From Candidatus Saccharimonadota bacterium (GTDB lineage: Bacteria > Patescibacteriota > Saccharimonadia > Saccharimonadales > Saccharimonadaceae), in NCBI GenBank assembly GCA_009783305.1, contig WRHJ01000003.1:1-64000 (forward strand): a stretch of DNA of 64,000 bases. Reading direction: 5' to 3'. Within the stretch, counting starts at the first letter, position 1. Every line of letters starts with the position of its first letter. The notes beneath the pieces are model-generated. The model saw only the letters and a list, made by a program, of their open reading frames with translations, searched no databases and was not told the origin of the DNA. Positions 8,898 to 60,073 of the stretch are shown piece by piece. A program made the translations under genes and the position numbers.

Positions 8898-9164
8898 ATG
8901 GAAGAAGAAATGATAATTTGCCAGAGTTGTAGTATGCCGTTGGCCAAAGATGAAGAAAAGGGTACAAATGCGGATGGTAGTAAAAATGAAGAATATTGCG
9001 TGTATTGTTTTGTGAACGGGAATTTTACGAAGCCAGAGCAGACACTAGAGGAAGCAATTGCGGAGAGTGAAGATTTTGCGGATGCGGCGGGGATGAGCAA
9101 AGAAGAGGCACGGAAATATGCTGAGGAAGTGTTGCCGAAATTGAAGAGGTGGCAGCAGGATTAG
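8898..9164 (+). CDS. Small zinc-ribbon protein
   Basis: This 88-residue protein starts with a zinc-ribbon-type domain: CQSCSMPL at residues about 8-15 and CVYCFVNGNF at about 35-44 give two CxxC pairs. This matches the putative zinc ribbon family often annotated as transcriptional regulator-like. The C-terminal half is an acidic helix (LEEAIAESEDFADAAGMSKE). AAAAAGGAGG precedes the ATG at good spacing, so translation is Shine-Dalgarno-driven. Function unknown. Confidence 0.8.
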   Translation: MEEEMIICQSCSMPLAKDEEKGTNADGSKNEEYCVYCFVNGNFTKPEQTLEEAIAESEDFADAAGMSKEEARKYAEEVLPKLKRWQQD

Positions 9165-16527: not shown

Positions 16528-16614
16528 GTTTGAATTTTAGATTTTGTGCTTGCTATGGTTATTTTGCTTGTGCTAAAATCGGTGCAAGTGTGGGCAACCG
16601 AAGGGAGGTGCCAA

Positions 16615-17793
16615 GTGCAAAACAAAAACTTAAATACTAAGTATATTTTTGTGACCGGAGGTGTGATCTCTGGTGTGGGGAAGGGGACGTTGGCCGCGAG
16701 TATCGGCGCGATTATCAAGGCGAAAGGCCTGAAGGTGTCGATCCAAAAATGTGACCCGTATTTTAATGTGGATGCGGGGATGATAGATCCGAGGGAACAT
16801 GGCGAGTGTTTCGTGACGGCGGATGGGGCGAAGACGGATTTGGACCTGGGACATTATGAGAGATTTCTGGATATGGAGTTGACGGGTGATTGCACTCTGA
16901 CTTCTGGGAAATTGTACAAGATGTTGATAGACGACGAGCGGGCGGGGAAGTTTGAAGGTAAGACAGTGCAGATGGTGCCGCATGTGACCGGGTTGATTCA
17001 GCAGAGTTTTCTCCTAAACGCGAAGAATTTTAAGAGTGATGTACATATTGTGGAAGTGGGGGGGACAGTGGGGGATTTGGAACAATCGCATTTTATTGAG
17101 GCGATACGAGAATTTCCGGCGAAAGTGGGGAGGGAGAATTGCTTTTATGTGCATGTAGTTTTTGTGCCGTATTTGTCGATTGGAAGGGAATTTAAGACAA
17201 AGCCAGCGCAAAATGCACTGCGGGATTTGCGCGAATTTGGCATTATACCGGATATGGTGGCGGCGCGGGTGGATATGGAAAGAATCACAGGAACGGGGAT
17301 GATACCGAAGAAATTGGCGACTTTTTGCGGGGTGGGCGAAGAGTGTGTAGTGGTGATGCCAAATGTGCGGAGTGTGTATGAAGTACCATTAAATGCTGTG
17401 AAAGGCGGGATGTTGGGACCGCTGGATAAATTTGTGGATCACGGTGATCCGGATATGAGTGATTGGGAGGAGTTGGTGGAGCGAATTCAACGGAAGCCAT
17501 CGCAGATTTTGCGAATTAGGATAATAGGGAAATACGTGGAAAATCCGGATGCTTATTTATCGGTAGTGGAGGCACTGAAGGCAGCGGGGTGGGCGCTGGG
17601 AGTTGGAATTGAGATAGTATGGAGCAGTGAGGATAAAGAAGAGGTGGATGGGGTTGTGATAGCGGATGGGAAATGGATTTATGACGGGAAAGCACCTGAC
17701 TTGAGGTTGGAAGGGAAGGGGCATCCAGAGTTCAGGAGTCGGCCGATGCGGCCACATCCGGTATTTGAGGAATTTATTAAGGGCATAAAATGA
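16615..17793 (+). CDS. pyrG: CTP synthase with internally deleted glutaminase domain
   Basis: CTP synthase aminates UTP to CTP. I start at GTG 16615 because AGGGAGGTG lies just upstream. The synthetase domain is intact: YIFVTGGVISGVGKGTLAAS, KCDPYFNVDAGMIDPREHGE, DLDLGHYERFLD, VEVGGTVGDLEQ. The C-terminal glutaminase domain, normally over 200 residues, is reduced to about 95: it starts normally (IGKYVENPDAYLSVVEALK), lacks the nucleophile-elbow Cys motif (GICLGMQ in E. coli), then resumes at the family's last block, HPEFRSRPMRPHPVFEEF. Total is 393 residues against about 540. Such an enzyme should use free ammonia rather than glutamine. A candidate -10 (TAAAAT) lies near 16575. Confidence 0.9.
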   Translation: MQNKNLNTKYIFVTGGVISGVGKGTLAASIGAIIKAKGLKVSIQKCDPYFNVDAGMIDPREHGECFVTADGAKTDLDLGHYERFLDMELTGDCTLTSGKLYKMLIDDERAGKFEGKTVQMVPHVTGLIQQSFLLNAKNFKSDVHIVEVGGTVGDLEQSHFIEAIREFPAKVGRENCFYVHVVFVPYLSIGREFKTKPAQNALRDLREFGIIPDMVAARVDMERITGTGMIPKKLATFCGVGEECVVVMPNVRSVYEVPLNAVKGGMLGPLDKFVDHGDPDMSDWEELVERIQRKPSQILRIRIIGKYVENPDAYLSVVEALKAAGWALGVGIEIVWSSEDKEEVDGVVIADGKWIYDGKAPDLRLEGKGHPEFRSRPMRPHPVFEEFIKGIK

Positions 17794-21983: not shown

Positions 21984-23606
21984 ATGAATGATGCCAAGGA
22001 GGAAATACGAGCGCGACTGGCGGTGGAGGATGTGGTAGGGCAGTACATAGAGCTGAAAAAGGCTGGTCGGAATTTTAAGGGACATTCACCTTGGGGTACA
22101 GATAAAACGCCGTCGTTCATGGTGTCGCCAGACAAAGGAATTTGGCATGATTTTTCGAGCAATAAAGGCGGGGATATTTTTAGTTTTGTGATGGAAATAG
22201 AGGGGATTGATTTTCGGGAGGCGCTGGAGAAATTGGCAGTGCAGGCGGGAGTGGAGTTGGCAAAATATGATGGGGGCGATGAGCGCGTAGCGGCACGCAA
22301 AAAGCGGATGCGCGAGTGCTTGGAGCTGGCGGCAAAATACTTTCAGGTGTGTTTGACGCAGAATAAACCAGTGATGGAGTACGTGTTTTATAAGCGGAAT
22401 TTGAATCGCGGTACGGTAGAGAAGTTTAAGATTGGTTATGCGCCGATGGAGGGAAGGGCGCTGAGGGCATTTTTGGAAAAGCGGGGATTTTCTGAGAGAG
22501 AGATGAAGGATGCGGGTCTGCTGAATCAATATGGAGGGGATTTGTTTAAGGGGCGGGTGATGATCCCACTGATGGACACAGTGGGGGCAGTGGTAGGATT
22601 TACGGGGCGAATCTTAAGCGACAAGGATAAAAATTCGCCAAAATATTTGAATACGCCGGAAACACTTTTGTATAACAAGGGCCGACATGTGTTTGGGTTG
22701 AGCCAGGCGAAAGAGGCAATTAGAAAATCAGATTTTGTGGTGGTGGTGGAAGGAAATATGGATGTAATTTCGAGTCATCAGGCTGGGGTGTGCGAGGCGG
22801 TGGCGACGGCGGGGACGGCGATGACGGAAATGCATGTGAAGGCTTTGTCGCGCCTGAGTAGTGATATACGGTTGGCGTATGACGGGGATGAGGCGGGGGT
22901 AGCGGCGGCGGAGCGGGCGATTGGAATTGCTTCGAGGATGGGCGTGTATTTGTCGGTAATTGACAATTATGATGGCTGCAAGGATGCGGATGAGCTAATT
23001 CAGAAGGGGGTGGAACTGTGGCAGAAAGCAGTGAAGGGATATGTGCCGGCGGTGGAGTGGTTGTTGGGCAAATATGAAGATAAGTATGATTTGAAAACGG
23101 AGAAGGGTTTTAAAGAATACAGTGATACAGCAAAGCGGCTGATTGGACAACTGGAGGATGCTACATTGCGGGAGAAATATGAGCGGATGGTAAGTGAAAA
23201 ATTGGGGGTATCTTTGGAATCTTTCCGCAGCAAGGAGCTGAAGGAGACGGGGCGAAGGCTGAAGAAAGCGGCAGCAGTAGCGAAAGATGATAATTCGGGG
23301 CCGAGCAAGGCGGAGAAAAGTTTGGCAGCGCTGGCGAAATTTGGAGGGACGGAAGTTGACAAGGAGTTGATTTATAGTAAACTAAACGAGAACGAGCTGA
23401 GTTTAATATATGAGCATCGTTACGCAGGCTGGGGCGAGGAAGCCAAGCGAAAAGAAATTGACGAGCTGACTCAGAGGGTAAAAGAAGAAAAACGGCAAAA
23501 ACAAAAAGAGAATCTATCTGCAGCAATTGCTGAAGCGGAAAAAGCTGGGGAAGAGGGGCGGGTGGAGGAGCTGCTAAAGGAATTAAAAGTAATTTTACAG
23601 GAGTAG
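21984..23606 (+). CDS. dnaG: DNA primase DnaG lacking zinc ligands
   Basis: DnaG makes RNA primers at the replication fork. The 540-residue protein has the TOPRIM catalytic core (VVVVEGNMDVISSHQAG, then LAYDGDEAGVAAAERA) and a C-terminal helical region that would contact DnaB. In the N-terminal domain the usual CPFHxEKTPSF...CFGCG zinc site reads S35-P-W-G-T-D-KTPSF and D56-F-S-S-N: all Cys/His ligands are gone although KTPSF and GGDIFSF persist. TATAAT (21972-21977) ends six bases before the ATG. The sigma factor follows nine bases after the stop, the classical dnaG-rpoD pairing. Confidence 0.95.
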   Translation: MNDAKEEIRARLAVEDVVGQYIELKKAGRNFKGHSPWGTDKTPSFMVSPDKGIWHDFSSNKGGDIFSFVMEIEGIDFREALEKLAVQAGVELAKYDGGDERVAARKKRMRECLELAAKYFQVCLTQNKPVMEYVFYKRNLNRGTVEKFKIGYAPMEGRALRAFLEKRGFSEREMKDAGLLNQYGGDLFKGRVMIPLMDTVGAVVGFTGRILSDKDKNSPKYLNTPETLLYNKGRHVFGLSQAKEAIRKSDFVVVVEGNMDVISSHQAGVCEAVATAGTAMTEMHVKALSRLSSDIRLAYDGDEAGVAAAERAIGIASRMGVYLSVIDNYDGCKDADELIQKGVELWQKAVKGYVPAVEWLLGKYEDKYDLKTEKGFKEYSDTAKRLIGQLEDATLREKYERMVSEKLGVSLESFRSKELKETGRRLKKAAAVAKDDNSGPSKAEKSLAALAKFGGTEVDKELIYSKLNENELSLIYEHRYAGWGEEAKRKEIDELTQRVKEEKRQKQKENLSAAIAEAEKAGEEGRVEELLKELKVILQE

Positions 23607-23615
23607 ATTTATTAT

Positions 23616-24584
23616 ATGAATGATGATAAAGACGTGAAATCGGATGATTTGATTGAAGAGCCGGATTTTGAGGAGATGGCCGAAGAAGAAGCGGAAGTGG
23701 AAAATTTGGAGCTGACAACGGGGGACTATGACGACGTATCGGATGATTCAGTAAAAATGTATTTGAAGGAAATCGGGAAGATTCCGTTGCTGAGTTCAGA
23801 GGAAGAGTTTGATTTGGCGCAAAAAGTAATTCATGGTACAGCGACAGAGCAAAAACGGGCGAAGGATAAGATGGCGGAAAGCAACATGCGCTTGGTGGTG
23901 TCGATTGCGAAGCGATATTCTGGACGCGGTTTGGATTTTCTGGATTTGATTCAGGAGGGGAATACGGGATTGCTAAGGGCGGTGGAGAAATTTGATCCGG
24001 ATAAAGGATTTAAGTTTTCAACTTATGCGACATGGTGGATTCGACAGGCGATTACGCGGGCGATTGCGGATCAGGCGCGGACGATTAGGATTCCGGTGCA
24101 CATGGTGGAAACGATTAATAAGGTTTTGCGAACGCAACGACGACTAACGCAGGAATTGAATCGGGAACCTTCAGTGGAGGAGGTGGCGAAAGAGATGGAC
24201 ATGGAGGTGGAGAAGATTGAGTATGTGATGAAGATTAAACAGGATATTGCTTCTTTGGACGCGTCGGTGGGTCGGGAAGGTGAGGATGAGGAATCTTCTT
24301 TGGGCGACTTTATTGAAGATGAAGAGAAGGTTTCGCCGGAAGATTCGGCGGCAACGCAGCTTTTGAAGGAACAGTTGGCGAAAATTTTGAAGACGCTTTC
24401 GGAGAGGGAACAGAAGATTATTAAGATGCGGTTTGGAATCGGCGGAGGGAAGAGTCATACTTTGGAGGAGGTGGGGGCGGAGTTTTCGGTGACGCGCGAG
24501 CGGATTAGGCAAATTGAGGCGAAGGCATTGAGCAAATTACGCAAGAATAAAGAGACGAAGAAGCTGCACGAGTATTTGAAATAA
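23616..24584 (+). CDS. rpoD: Primary RNA polymerase sigma factor
   Basis: A sigma-70 family factor of 322 residues directing RNA polymerase to the -10/-35 promoters seen here. It has an acidic N-terminus but no clear region 1.1, region 1.2 ([20 protein letters not shown]), region 2 ([35 protein letters not shown]), region 3, and region 4 with the helix-turn-helix [19 protein letters not shown]. It directly follows dnaG and is probably cotranscribed. Confidence 0.95.
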
Positions 24585-27696: not shown

Positions 27697-28527
27697 ATGG
27701 AGATGACGCTAGCGGTTGCATTGATTATGTTTGTGGTGGGGGCAGTGTTTGGGTCATTTGCTTGCTGCCAGGCGTGGCGATTGCACTTGAAGGATACCGG
27801 GAAGGGGAAAATGGCGAAATCAAAATGGTCGGTTTGCATGGACTGTAAGTATAGATTGAAGTGGTACGATAATATTCCGGTGATTAGTTGGGTGGTGTTG
27901 CGAGGGAAATGTCGGAAGTGCGGAAAGAAGATTGGCGGGTGGGAGATTTTGAGTGAGGTGGGGCTAGGGGTGGTATTTGCGGTGTTTGGAGTGTGGTTTT
28001 ATGGTAATTTTGCGAGTTTGATTATCGGCAATGATATGACTTGGCAGTTGTGGGTGCTGGCGGGGTTGGTGATGGCGATGCTGGTGGGGTTTGCAATTTT
28101 GTTCATAGCGGATGCGCGGTGGGGCAGGTTGCCAGTGGGTGTATTGACTTTTTGCATAATTTGTGCTATACTGTTTGCAACCACACGCGAGTGGGGCGTG
28201 TTTGCTGTTGCTCAAATTTGGGATTACTTGGGGGCGCTACTGGTGTTGCCGGTACTATATTATTTGCTGTATAAGATATCGGGCGAGAAGTGGGTGGGAA
28301 GTGGGGATTGGTTGTTGGCGTTGCCGATAGCTCTAGTGCTGGGTAATTTTTGGTTGGCGTTCTTCTGTGTGTTTGCGGCGAATTTGATGGGATGCTTTGT
28401 GATGATACCGGTGATGATGAGGAAGAAAAAGAATATGAATATGCGGGTGGCATTTGGACCGTTTTTGATAGTGGCGTTTATGATAGTATTTTTGGCGCAG
28501 GAGTGGGTTTTGGGGTTGATGGGTTAG
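27697..28527 (+). CDS. pilD: Prepilin peptidase PilD
   Basis: PilD cleaves the prepilin leader and N-methylates the new N-terminus. The 276-residue membrane protein carries the cytoplasmic zinc loop with two CxxC pairs (VCMDCKYRLKWYDNIPVISW; GKCRKCGKK), typical of the bifunctional enzyme, and the two catalytic aspartates in FIADARWGRLP and VGSGDWLLA. TAAGAT ends seven bases before the ATG. The 3' end overlaps the convergent recombinase by four bases. Confidence 0.95.
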   Translation: MEMTLAVALIMFVVGAVFGSFACCQAWRLHLKDTGKGKMAKSKWSVCMDCKYRLKWYDNIPVISWVVLRGKCRKCGKKIGGWEILSEVGLGVVFAVFGVWFYGNFASLIIGNDMTWQLWVLAGLVMAMLVGFAILFIADARWGRLPVGVLTFCIICAILFATTREWGVFAVAQIWDYLGALLVLPVLYYLLYKISGEKWVGSGDWLLALPIALVLGNFWLAFFCVFAANLMGCFVMIPVMMRKKKNMNMRVAFGPFLIVAFMIVFLAQEWVLGLMG

Positions 28528-35729: not shown

Positions 35730-35786
35730 GCTTGCGTTATTGTACCAGATTATGTGATAAAATTGGAAGATAAAAGAAAGGTTGTT

Positions 35787-37547
35787 ATGTCAAACTCAGA
35801 AAATGTAGAAAAAATGCGACACACCCTTAGCCATATTCTGGCGGCAGCGGTGAAGGATTTGTATGGCACGACGACAACGGTGAAGTTTGGGATTGGGCCG
35901 GCGGTGGAGAACGGTTTTTATTATGATATCGATTTTGGGGCGATGAAGGTTGAAGAGGAAAGGTTGCCGGAGATTGAGGGGAAGATGCGGGAGATCATTG
36001 CGGAGAAATTGCCGATTACGATGGTCGAGAAGACAAAAGAAGAGGCGTTGGCTTGGGCGAAGGTGGAGAAGCAGAACTACAAGAAGGAATTGATTGAGGA
36101 GTTGCCGGAGGGGGAACATATTACGTTTTACACTCTGGGTGACTTTACGGATCTGTGTCGGGGTCCGCACGAAGAGAATACAGGAGAGGTGGGGGCGTTT
36201 AAGCTGATCCGGGTGAGTGGGGCGTATTGGAAGGGCGATGAAAAGCGAGAGCAAATGACCAGGATTTTTGGAGTGGCGTTTGGTTCTCAGCAGGAGCTGG
36301 ATGATTATTTGAAGATGCTAGATGAGGCGAAGAAGCGAGATCACCGGAAGTTGGGGAAGGATTTGGATCTGTTTTGTTTCTCGGATTTGGTGGGGTCGGG
36401 GTTGCCGATGTTTACGCCGAGGGGAGGGATGATTCGAAATCGATTGGAGGAATATTCGTTGAGTTTGCGGGCGACAAAGGGATTTGAGCGGGTATGGTCG
36501 CCGCATATCACAAAGGTAGATTTGTATAAAAAGTCAGGGCATTATGAGAAGTTTGGGGCGGAGCTGTTTATGGTGCATAGTCAGGTGAACGGGGAAGAGT
36601 TTGCGTTGAAACCGATGAATTGCCCACATCATACGCAGATTTTTGATTGCAAGCCGCGGACTTATCGGGAATTGCCGATAAGGATGATGGAGTGCACAAC
36701 AGATTATAGGGATGAAAAGACGGGAGAGTTGGGCGGTTTGTCGCGGGTGCGATCTCTGTCGCAGGATGATAGCCACGTGTTTTGTCGCAGAGCGCAGGTG
36801 AAGGAAGAGGTGGGGGTATTGGTGGGGATTGTGAAGGAGTTTTACGAGGTGATCGGGATGGATAAATTGCGGGTGCGGTTGTCGTACCGTGATGATAGCG
36901 ATGCCTATTTGGGGGATAAGAAACTCTGGGATATGGCGCAGCAACAGATTAAAGAACTGGCGGAAGAGAATAAGTTAGAGTATTACGAGGCGGAGGGGGA
37001 GGCGGCGTTTTACGGGCCGAAGCTGGACTTTATGGCGGAGGATGCGATTGGGCGAGAGCATCAGGTGGCGACGATCCAGTTGGATTTTGTGATGCCAGGA
37101 CGGTTTGAATTGGGCTTTGTAAACGAGAAGGGCGAGATGGAACAGCCGGTGATGATACATCATGCGACGATGGGCTCAACAGAGAGATTTTTGAGTGTAT
37201 TCATTGAACATACGGCGGGTTGGTTCCCGTTGTGGTGTGCGCCGGAACAGATTAGGATATTGACGATTAATGATACAGTGTCAGATTATGTTGTAAAAAT
37301 TACAACACTTTTGGATGGGGTGGAACTGGAGGAACCGTTGATACATAATGCGCTGCGATACCATGTGGATGCGCGTAATGAATCGTTAGGCAAGAAAATT
37401 CGCGAAGCGACGGAGATGAAAATTCCGATGGTTTTGATTGTGGGGCCAAAGGATAAGGAAGCTGGGGAAGTGAGCGTGCGATTGCGAGATGGCGAACAGA
37501 AGGTGAAGTTGGAGGCTTTGGCGGAGTTTATTAAGGGACAAAAATAG
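35787..37547 (+). CDS. thrS: Threonyl-tRNA synthetase lacking the TGS domain
   Basis: ThrRS charges tRNA-Thr. The 586-residue class II enzyme begins at the editing/SAD domain (MRHTLSHILAAAVKDLYG), without the roughly 60-residue N-terminal TGS domain. The catalytic core follows with MNCPHHTQIF (zinc Cys), motif 2 MECTTDYRDEKTGELGGLSR, HHATMGSTERFLSVFIEHT, and the C-terminal anticodon-binding domain. AAGAAAGG precedes ATG 35787. A 19-bp palindrome (TGTTGTAAAAATTACAACA) lies in its coding sequence at 37289-37307. Confidence 0.95.
   Translation: MSNSENVEKMRHTLSHILAAAVKDLYGTTTTVKFGIGPAVENGFYYDIDFGAMKVEEERLPEIEGKMREIIAEKLPITMVEKTKEEALAWAKVEKQNYKKELIEELPEGEHITFYTLGDFTDLCRGPHEENTGEVGAFKLIRVSGAYWKGDEKREQMTRIFGVAFGSQQELDDYLKMLDEAKKRDHRKLGKDLDLFCFSDLVGSGLPMFTPRGGMIRNRLEEYSLSLRATKGFERVWSPHITKVDLYKKSGHYEKFGAELFMVHSQVNGEEFALKPMNCPHHTQIFDCKPRTYRELPIRMMECTTDYRDEKTGELGGLSRVRSLSQDDSHVFCRRAQVKEEVGVLVGIVKEFYEVIGMDKLRVRLSYRDDSDAYLGDKKLWDMAQQQIKELAEENKLEYYEAEGEAAFYGPKLDFMAEDAIGREHQVATIQLDFVMPGRFELGFVNEKGEMEQPVMIHHATMGSTERFLSVFIEHTAGWFPLWCAPEQIRILTINDTVSDYVVKITTLLDGVELEEPLIHNALRYHVDARNESLGKKIREATEMKIPMVLIVGPKDKEAGEVSVRLRDGEQKVKLEALAEFIKGQK
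37289..37307. repeat. 19-bp palindrome, copy 1 (inside thrS)
   Basis: TGTTGTAA-AAA-TTACAACA, perfect 8-bp arms. The reverse complement is exactly the 50519-50537 copy. Here it encodes Val-Val-Lys-Ile-Thr-Thr. Confidence 0.75.
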
Positions 37548-57508: not shown

Positions 57509-60073
57509 ATGGTAGAAGATAAATCAGATGACAGTGTAGTAGGGGGAGTGCCAGATTCGGCTGATGATAAGGGATTAGATGAGCTGACGGATGGTGTTGT
57601 AGAAAATACAAAAACAGTGGCCATTGCAGGCGTGGAAGAGTCGACGGTTGAAAATGTGATGGAGGATTCGTTTCTACGTTATTCGATGTCGGTGATTATT
57701 GATCGAGCGCTACCGGATGTGCGGGATGGGTTGAAGCCGGTGCATAGGCGGATTTTGTATGCAATGGAGAAAAATGGCTGGAAGGCGCCACATGCAACGG
57801 TGAAATCGGCGAGGATTATTGGTGAGGTGATGGGCAAGTATCACCCGCATGGCGACTCTTCGATTTATGATGCGATGGTGAACTTGGCACAGCCTTGGAA
57901 AATGCGCTATACGTTAGTGGAGGGGCAGGGCAACTTTGGTTCGATGGATGGCGATGAGGCGGCAGCTTCGCGTTATACGGAAGCGCGGATGGACAAAGTA
58001 GGGGGCGAATTGCTGGCGGATATTGAAAAAGAGACAGTGGATTTTCGAGATAATTTTGATGGCAGCGAGAAGGAACCGGTAGTGTTGCCGGCGGCGGTGC
58101 CGAACATTTTGTTAAATGGACAGATGGGCATTGCGGTGGGTATGGCAACCAACATCCCGCCGCATAATTTGGCGGAGGTAGTGGATGCGACGGTGGCGCA
58201 GATTGATGATCCGGAGATTACGCTGGATGGGTTGCTGAAGCATGTGAAGGGACCAGATTTTCCGACGGGAGCTGAAGTGTATGGTGGTGACCCGATGAAG
58301 CAGGCTTATGCAACTGGACGCGGTTCAGTGACGATCCGGGCAGTGACGGAGATTGAGGAGCGCAAGGGTGGCCGGTATAATATTGTGATTTCGGAAGTAC
58401 CATATGGGATGAGCAAAGAGTCGTTTGTTGAGAAAGTGCGCGAATTGGTAATTGCTAGAAAGCTGGATCATATTGCAGACGCTCGGGATGAAAGTGCGCG
58501 GGGAAAAATACGCGTAGTGGTAGAGTTGAAGAAAGATGCGTTTCCGAAGAAGATTTTGAACCAGTTATATAAGATGACTGGACTGCAGACGGCTTTTCAC
58601 TATAATGTGCTGGCCTTGGTGGATGGGATTCAGCCAAGGGTGATGGGGCTGAAAGAGATATTGACTGAGTTTATCAAGCACAGACAGAAGGTGATTCGGC
58701 GACGTACGGAGTTCGAGTTGCGCAAGGCGAAGGAACGAGCGCATATTTTGGAGGGGCTGAAGATTGCGTTGGATCATATAGATGAGGTAATTAAGACAAT
58801 TCGTGAGAGTTATGATGATGCCGATAAGAGGTTGATGAGCAGATTTGGCTTGTCGGAGATTCAGGCAGCGGCGATTTTGGCGATGCAATTGCGCAGGCTG
58901 CAGGGTCTGGAGCGCGAAAAGATTGAGGCTGAATTGAAGGAATTGCACGAGTTGATTAAGAAGTTAGAAGCGATATTGGCGGATGAGAAGGAAATTTTGC
59001 GAGTAGTGAAGGAAGAGTTGCTGGCGATGAAGGAAAAGTATGGAGACAAGAGAAAGAGCAAGATTTTCCGACACGAGTTGGGTAAGTTTGCCGATGAAGA
59101 TTTGATTCCGGATGAAGAGAGCGTAGTATTGCTGACAGCTGAAAATTACGTGAAGCGAGTGTCGCAGAACGATTTTAGGCGGCAGAACCGCGGCGGCAAG
59201 GGCAAGCGGGGGATTACGACTAAAGAAGAGGACGTAATTGATGCGATTATTACAATTAATTCGCATGATTATTTGTTGTTCTTTACGAATCAAGGCCGGA
59301 TTTTTAGGGTGAAAGCTTACGAAGTGCCGCAGGCGTCTTTGACGGCTAAAGGTACGGCGGCAGTGAATTTGCTGAATTTGCATCCAGAGGAAAAGGTGAC
59401 GGCGATTATTAAACAGGGCGATGAAGCGGCAGAAAATAATTATCTGTTTATGGCAACGACGAAGGGGACGATCAAGAAGACGCCAATGAAGGATTATGTG
59501 AATATTCGGACTAATGGTTTGATTACGATTAAGTTGGATAGTAAGGATGAGTTGCGCTGGGTGAAAGGAACAACTGGCGAAAACGATGTGATTATTTCGA
59601 CTTCGGCAGGTCAGGCGGTGAGATTCAATGAGAGGGATGTGCGGCCGATGGGGCGAGCGGCGCGAGGCGTGAGGGGGATGCGGCTGCGTCCGAACGATAC
59701 GATAGTGGGCATGGATATAGTGAGCGATCCGAGGAGTCAGAAGTTGATTGCGGTGTCAGCCAATGGTTACGGCAAGGTGACGGCGGTGACGAATTTTCCG
59801 GCGCATAGGCGGGGCGGAGTAGGGATAAAGGTGGCGGCGGTAACGGCGAAGACGGGGCCGATTGTGGCGGTGCATACGCTAGATCCTGAAGCAAAAGAGA
59901 TTATCATGATGTCCAATAAGGGACAGGCAATACGGGTGGCTACGAAAGAGATTCCGACGCTGGGGCGAGCGACGCAAGGGGTGAGGATTATGAAGATGAA
60001 CGAGGGAGATGGCGTGGCATCGATTGGGATTGTGCCACACGAAGAGGAAGAGATAGAAGATAAAGCTGCGTAG
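57509..60073 (+). CDS. gyrA: DNA gyrase subunit A
   Basis: GyrA cuts and rejoins DNA. The 854-residue protein has an acidic extension of about 45 residues before LRYSMSVIIDRALPDVRDGL, then the catalytic Tyr in AAASRYTEARM, the coiled coil and a beta-pinwheel C-terminal domain with the GyrA box QNRGGKGKRG at about residue 560, showing it is gyrase rather than topoisomerase IV. GGAGG precedes the ATG. No parC/parE is seen here. Confidence 0.98.
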   Translation: MVEDKSDDSVVGGVPDSADDKGLDELTDGVVENTKTVAIAGVEESTVENVMEDSFLRYSMSVIIDRALPDVRDGLKPVHRRILYAMEKNGWKAPHATVKSARIIGEVMGKYHPHGDSSIYDAMVNLAQPWKMRYTLVEGQGNFGSMDGDEAAASRYTEARMDKVGGELLADIEKETVDFRDNFDGSEKEPVVLPAAVPNILLNGQMGIAVGMATNIPPHNLAEVVDATVAQIDDPEITLDGLLKHVKGPDFPTGAEVYGGDPMKQAYATGRGSVTIRAVTEIEERKGGRYNIVISEVPYGMSKESFVEKVRELVIARKLDHIADARDESARGKIRVVVELKKDAFPKKILNQLYKMTGLQTAFHYNVLALVDGIQPRVMGLKEILTEFIKHRQKVIRRRTEFELRKAKERAHILEGLKIALDHIDEVIKTIRESYDDADKRLMSRFGLSEIQAAAILAMQLRRLQGLEREKIEAELKELHELIKKLEAILADEKEILRVVKEELLAMKEKYGDKRKSKIFRHELGKFADEDLIPDEESVVLLTAENYVKRVSQNDFRRQNRGGKGKRGITTKEEDVIDAIITINSHDYLLFFTNQGRIFRVKAYEVPQASLTAKGTAAVNLLNLHPEEKVTAIIKQGDEAAENNYLFMATTKGTIKKTPMKDYVNIRTNGLITIKLDSKDELRWVKGTTGENDVIISTSAGQAVRFNERDVRPMGRAARGVRGMRLRPNDTIVGMDIVSDPRSQKLIAVSANGYGKVTAVTNFPAHRRGGVGIKVAAVTAKTGPIVAVHTLDPEAKEIIMMSNKGQAIRVATKEIPTLGRATQGVRIMKMNEGDGVASIGIVPHEEEEIEDKAA

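Follow-up and report, generated by a model that had tools for sequence, protein, structure and literature searches.

A DnaG primase without zinc ligands in its ribbon domain and the loss of structural zinc sites in the Saccharimonadales

The stretch of DNA analysed here (the window, 64,000 nucleotides) comes from a member of the Saccharimonadales and carries one dnaG gene (Table 1), with a gene for an RpoD-type sigma factor downstream at 23616-24584. By sequence the reading frame encodes a DnaG-type bacterial primase. TIGR01391 covers residues 5-407 at 371 bits against a cut-off of 283.6, and the Pfam domains Zn_ribbon_DnaG, DNAG_N, Toprim and DnaB_bind each score above cut-off, the ribbon (PF01807) reaching 86.9 bits against a gathering score of 24.9. 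The Toprim residues E256, D260, D300 and D302 are invariant in 30 aligned DnaG rows, and we take the glutamate of EGxMD together with DxD to be the Toprim catalytic residues. The genome to which the window belongs (G000; 0.79 Mb, 98% complete) has one DnaB. A second, zinc-bearing primase was ruled out there, given that PF01807 matches the genome only once, at the window DnaG.

Table 1 Features of dnaG and of other genes with or without zinc sites. Coordinates are window positions unless a contig is given.
Feature	Position	Strand	Basis
dnaG, replicative primase, 540 aa	21984..23606	+	TIGR01391 371 bits; four Pfam domains over cut-off
N-terminal ribbon domain without zinc ligands, residues 6-94	21999..22265	+	PF01807 86.9 bits; predicted model against 1d0q, Z 15.9
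First knuckle SPWG, S35 and G38 replacing Cys and His	22086..22097	+	Alignment to 2au3; S35 in 140/140 zinc-less class rows
Second knuckle WHDFSS (W54, D56, S58, S59), D56 and S59 replacing two Cys	22143..22160	+	Alignment to 2au3
Catalytic core, N-terminal part (DNAG_N, residues 122-243)	22347..22712	+	PF08275 105.5 bits
Toprim domain, residues 253-339, EGNMD and YDGDEAG retained	22740..23000	+	PF13155 65.7 bits
DnaB-binding domain, residues 358-412	23055..23219	+	PF10410 39.4 bits
Small protein with intact zinc ribbon CQSC, CVYC (contrast)	8898..9164	+	PF12674 98.1 bits
Prepilin peptidase with two intact CxxC pairs (contrast)	27697..28527	+	PF06750 73 bits; sequence
ThrRS keeping C290, H341, H469 (contrast)	35754..37547	+	Sequence
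Zinc-less RpoC of the same genome	G000 C1 near 172315 (L266, L277)

The original prediction, made from the letters of this DNA, held that all four zinc ligands of the DnaG ribbon are replaced, at S35, G38, D56 and N60. Alignment to Aquifex DnaG (2au3), whose CPFH and CFGC fall on SPWG and DFSS, confirms the fourfold replacement and the first three positions; the fourth was one residue off and is S59. Relatives have Cys, His, Cys and Cys at these places (CHCC), and the window protein lacks this ligand feature of the CHC2 ribbon. Because residues 1-99 contain no Cys at all, ligands shifted to nearby positions could also be ruled out.

The ribbon was further proposed to keep its fold without the ligands, and modelling supports this. 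With a 62-row alignment the predicted N-domain has a mean pLDDT of 85.7 and forms the ribbon strands, and it superposes on the zinc domains of Bacillus stearothermophilus DnaG (1d0q; Z 15.9, 1.8 A over 97 residues, 46% identity) and Aquifex aeolicus DnaG (2au3; Z 15.1, 36% identity), which lie at the same position in the protein; the knuckles are, moreover, well conserved between genera. This model leans on zinc-bearing forms, as 49 of the 62 rows are CHCC, and an earlier one from 30 mostly zinc-less rows was poor in the first knuckle (pLDDT <50 at residues 27-43). Unlike both structures, the window DnaG has no Cys or His ligand, and its W54 and S58 are fixed within its clade. The ribbon of animal Twinkle has also lost its Cys ligands, and human Twinkle (7t8c), a primase-helicase relative with an altered N-terminal primase part, resembles the model at Z 7.3. 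In the part of PMC3610141 drawn on here, animal mitochondrial Twinkle is described as having helicase activity only, whereas the window DnaG keeps all Toprim residues.

We surveyed the class, in which PF01807 matched 142 of 147 genomes; 89 of the 147 were read and 87 typed at all four positions. An alignment of many saccharibacterial DnaGs, proposed along with the original prediction, finds the ligands absent throughout the window's order: all 58 typed genomes carry S35 and D56, and none has CHCC. With every one of these 58 genomes showing the replacement, a sequencing error is excluded. The rest of the class is divided, with CHCC in 13 of 29 typed genomes, including the sister families f18, f20, f22, f24, f25 and f26, and loss in 16; two of the non-CHCC genomes outside the order retain the His (SHDA in G014, SHDT in G035). 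Among 67 loci from named genomes found with the window protein, 65 are zinc-less, one lacks the domain and one, L095, whose title does not name a Saccharibacterium, is CHCC. This set and the class survey seem to share at least two genomes. One row without the N-domain (L090) and two partial ones (G046, G048) were dropped before counting, and other PF01807 proteins of G044, G005 and G009 (L131, L132, L133) were left out.

Across the phylum 268 of 286 genomes matched, and the 60 read outside the class were a non-random choice of the 30 best and 30 weaker scorers. CHCC was found in 52 of these 60, and two were untyped. G222 and G314, whose ribbon lies in another frame than the core, were left untyped. 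Zinc-less or partial states outside the class are SRDS (G190, G154), SRDA (G369), STCT (G170, G352) and SKCT (G175). A scan with a further profile (A3) kept 80 of 304 relatives, and the 48 of those 80 that were aligned are all CHCC. In four genomes of estimated 97-100% completeness (G105, G069, G101, G002) neither PF01807 nor TIGR01391 gave a match, while RpoC was found in all four; a gap, a masked stretch or a true absence may explain the missing DnaG.

The zinc-less ribbons carry a constant set of substitutes. In 140 zinc-less class rows, which contain the window twice, S35, W54 and D56 are each present in all 140 and S58 in 139, while position 59 is Ser in 75, Ala in 62 and Thr in 3 and position 38 is free (Gly, Thr, Ser, Lys or Asn). 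By comparison, only 24 of 67 CHCC rows have Trp at 54 and two have Ser at 58. Invariant D56 and S35 could point to a different metal (Mg, Mn or Fe) that is bound in the knuckles by Asp and Ser, but with Ala at the fourth position in 62 of the 140 rows and a variable second position at most two good ligands would remain, and where position 38 is Lys or Arg, as in clade A among others, a salt bridge is a better fit than a metal, so that we judge this reading very improbable. Between genera of the order, mean identity is 0.80 over residues 33-64 and 0.57 over the core; CHCC members of the class give 0.84 and 0.63 in the same comparison. Given that the knuckle residues are more conserved than the core and the substitutes are fixed, the ribbon is under selection and not a relic.

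Trees were built from the catalytic core only, leaving the ribbon out. On 82 cellular DnaG rows (careful method), zinc loss requires five changes, each forced by branches with good support, and D56 needs four gains, each of them likewise forced; a single origin of the zinc-less state occurs in 0 of 200 bootstrap trees. An 88-row core tree that includes phages (quick method) gives eight changes of the zinc-less label, at least four of them forced. Two losses fall within the class, one leading to the window's order and the other to families f17, f21, f23 and f27 together with f19, which sits on a long branch that is placed differently in the two trees. The sister of the window's order is the CHCC family f18 (support 92/83). 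The loss of zinc ligands in DnaG is convergent. The idea of a single unusual primase gives way to ligand loss that is fixed across an order, has several origins in the phylum and is also found in phages.

A change from Cys to Asp is impossible by one base change, so the repeated gain of Asp points to selection for this residue. The small genomes and the recurrent loss would also suit a ribbon that decays under relaxed selection and no longer matters, but such a ribbon should not be conserved above its own core with invariant substitutes, nor gain Asp four times over more than one base change; we regard decay as very unlikely. An inactive ribbon would also be costly, given that T7 primase without this domain is reported to make random dinucleotides (PMC6163395).

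A viral scan with the zinc-less DnaG profile returned four loci, two zinc-less (L222, L223) and two with their Cys in place (L224, L225). Among phage records 312 matched and five of these were read, two being zinc-less and three CHCC. The primases of the Flavobacterium phages laban6-1 and 1H (L226, MN812211; L435, KU599889) have the knuckles SPF...IWKDFSS, and the IMG/VR contigs L222 and L223 have SPFN...WHDFSS and WHDFSA. All four share S-x-D-S/A knuckles with a preceding Trp, as in the window DnaG; the two Flavobacterium phage proteins differ from it in their length (>1,000 aa), distant core and annotation as toprim or hypothetical protein. A gene near the L222 and L223 primases resembles that of a ribonucleotide reductase small subunit. 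These shared knuckles would be expected if the zinc-less form had spread by gene transfer, perhaps via phages, instead of by repeated mutation, yet zinc-less rows do not group on the ribbon-free core trees, and we give transfer a very small chance. Transfer of the ribbon alone by recombination would be compatible with those trees.

The primase is not the only enzyme concerned. We compared the positions that we take to be the known zinc sites of RpoC, LigA, bL36, uS14, UvrA and ThrRS, and in the window's order structural sites of particular core enzymes are gone. The N-terminal site of RpoC (beta') has no Cys left in 24 of 24 order genomes, CYCGK...CDKCG having become INPHD...VDKNG or similar (INP[NH]D...VDK.G), and the second site is incomplete in all 24, with 0 to 2 of its 4 Cys left. 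Class members from other orders or families still have these sites, with an intact first site in 11 of 11 readable genomes (all three of f18 among them) and an intact second site in 12 of 12. The first site is likewise present in 12 further genomes that do not belong to the order. The zinc-less form of ribosomal protein bL36 occurs in 5 of 5 order genomes and in two f51 genomes too, and bL36 keeps its Cys in 10 class genomes outside the order (among the 19 of 21 matches listed). The number of uS14 Cys kept is 0/4 in G000, 1/4 in G012 and G144 and 4/4 in G013 and G005. LigA keeps its zinc finger in 3 of 12 genomes (G013, G016, G022) and has lost it in four order genomes and in G001, G006, G014 and G005; that of G024 was not read, as the gene is split.

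Several of these losses coincide on the order's stem after the split from f18, as seen for DnaG and RpoC, the two proteins read in that family. The losses are nevertheless separable, as clade A lacks DnaG zinc but keeps that of RpoC, and G005 of f20 lacks LigA zinc but keeps that of DnaG. UvrA has its C-terminal CxxC...CxxC in 12 of 12 genomes, and ThrRS retains C290, H341 and H469, presumably its zinc ligands. With these sites, the small ribbon protein and the prepilin peptidase all intact, the cells must still use zinc. A ZnuA-type importer was found in 5 of 28 genomes (3 of 15 in the order, 2 of 13 elsewhere in the class) in no pattern; this distribution lends no support to a zinc shortage, and we draw no verdict from it.

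General cysteine avoidance, with Cys shed everywhere and zinc ligands lost as a by-product, would also produce such losses. The proteins of the window are indeed poor in Cys (0.63% of residues in 31 proteins), and GyrA (57509-60073, 854 aa) and the sigma factor (322 aa) have none. However, RpoC Cys outside the zinc sites average 4.65 for the order (23 rows) and 4.20 for the rest of the class (10 rows) in rows of >1,200 aa, and UvrA in the order retains its C-terminal zinc Cys and 12-17 Cys in total. Because the non-zinc Cys of RpoC are unchanged, we reject avoidance as the main cause; it also leaves the recurrence of the same Asp and Trp unexplained, and we consider it highly unlikely. As a separate observation, the N-terminal Cys site of UvrA is lost in G001, G006 and G014 (L311, L313, L310), which lie outside the order and have a zinc-less DnaG, and is largely kept inside the order (CPID for CPIC in G000), the reverse of RpoC.

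The nearest known parallel is the zinc-free (C-) form of bacterial ribosomal proteins. S4, S14, L31, L36 and others recur in this form and are discussed as zinc economy in the sections of PMC3087516 used here. Like them, the DnaG of the order has a zinc ribbon that is kept, ligands that are lost, recurrence across lineages and zinc-bearing sister forms. Zinc-free ribosomal proteins often have zinc-bearing paralogs, according to the same sections, whereas here a single-copy primase and RNA polymerase are affected. Given this precedent, the bL36 and uS14 losses are ordinary; those of DnaG, LigA and RpoC are not covered by it, as far as these sections of PMC3087516 go. A search of open-access literature found nothing on a zinc-less DnaG or RNA polymerase in Saccharibacteria, which is weak evidence of absence.

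The window DnaG is the cell's replicative primase and most likely a working one. We consider it probable that its ribbon folds without zinc and that core information enzymes have shed their structural zinc. In such a ribbon, S35, D56 and S58 would form hydrogen bonds with one another and with backbone amides, which would hold the two knuckles together in place of the usual zinc clamp, with W54 packed beneath. The basic face of the ribbon (K25, R29, K32) would still meet single-stranded DNA, and the zinc-free domain would help the Toprim core to choose start sites. The shedding of structural zinc would have affected proteins of replication, transcription and translation in the stem lineage of the order and spared catalytic zinc as well as some zinc sites of repair enzymes. 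With somewhat less assurance we favour a broader reading, in which the whole order runs its core enzymes without structural zinc (primase, NAD ligase, both beta' sites, bL36 and uS14) and Ser-Trp-Asp-Ser is a repeatable substitute for the clamp, its Asp reached at least four times in cells and again in phages.

A natural primase that has the domain but no ligands, next to CHCC sisters in f18, offers a way to separate the role of the fold from that of the metal, and the partial states SHDA, SHDT, SKCT and STCT likewise help. An RNA polymerase without both beta' zinc sites would allow the same separation for transcription. The DnaG ribbon may also serve as an example, worked out in detail, of how side chains can take over from a structural metal, an outcome that was reached more than once.

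Elsewhere in the window, positions 16546-17793 encode a 415-aa CTP synthase. Its synthetase half matches positions 2-334 of 534 in NF003792 as well as CTP_synth_N. No glutaminase domain was reported for it, and the frame ends in a PyrG-like HPEF...PHPVF stretch.
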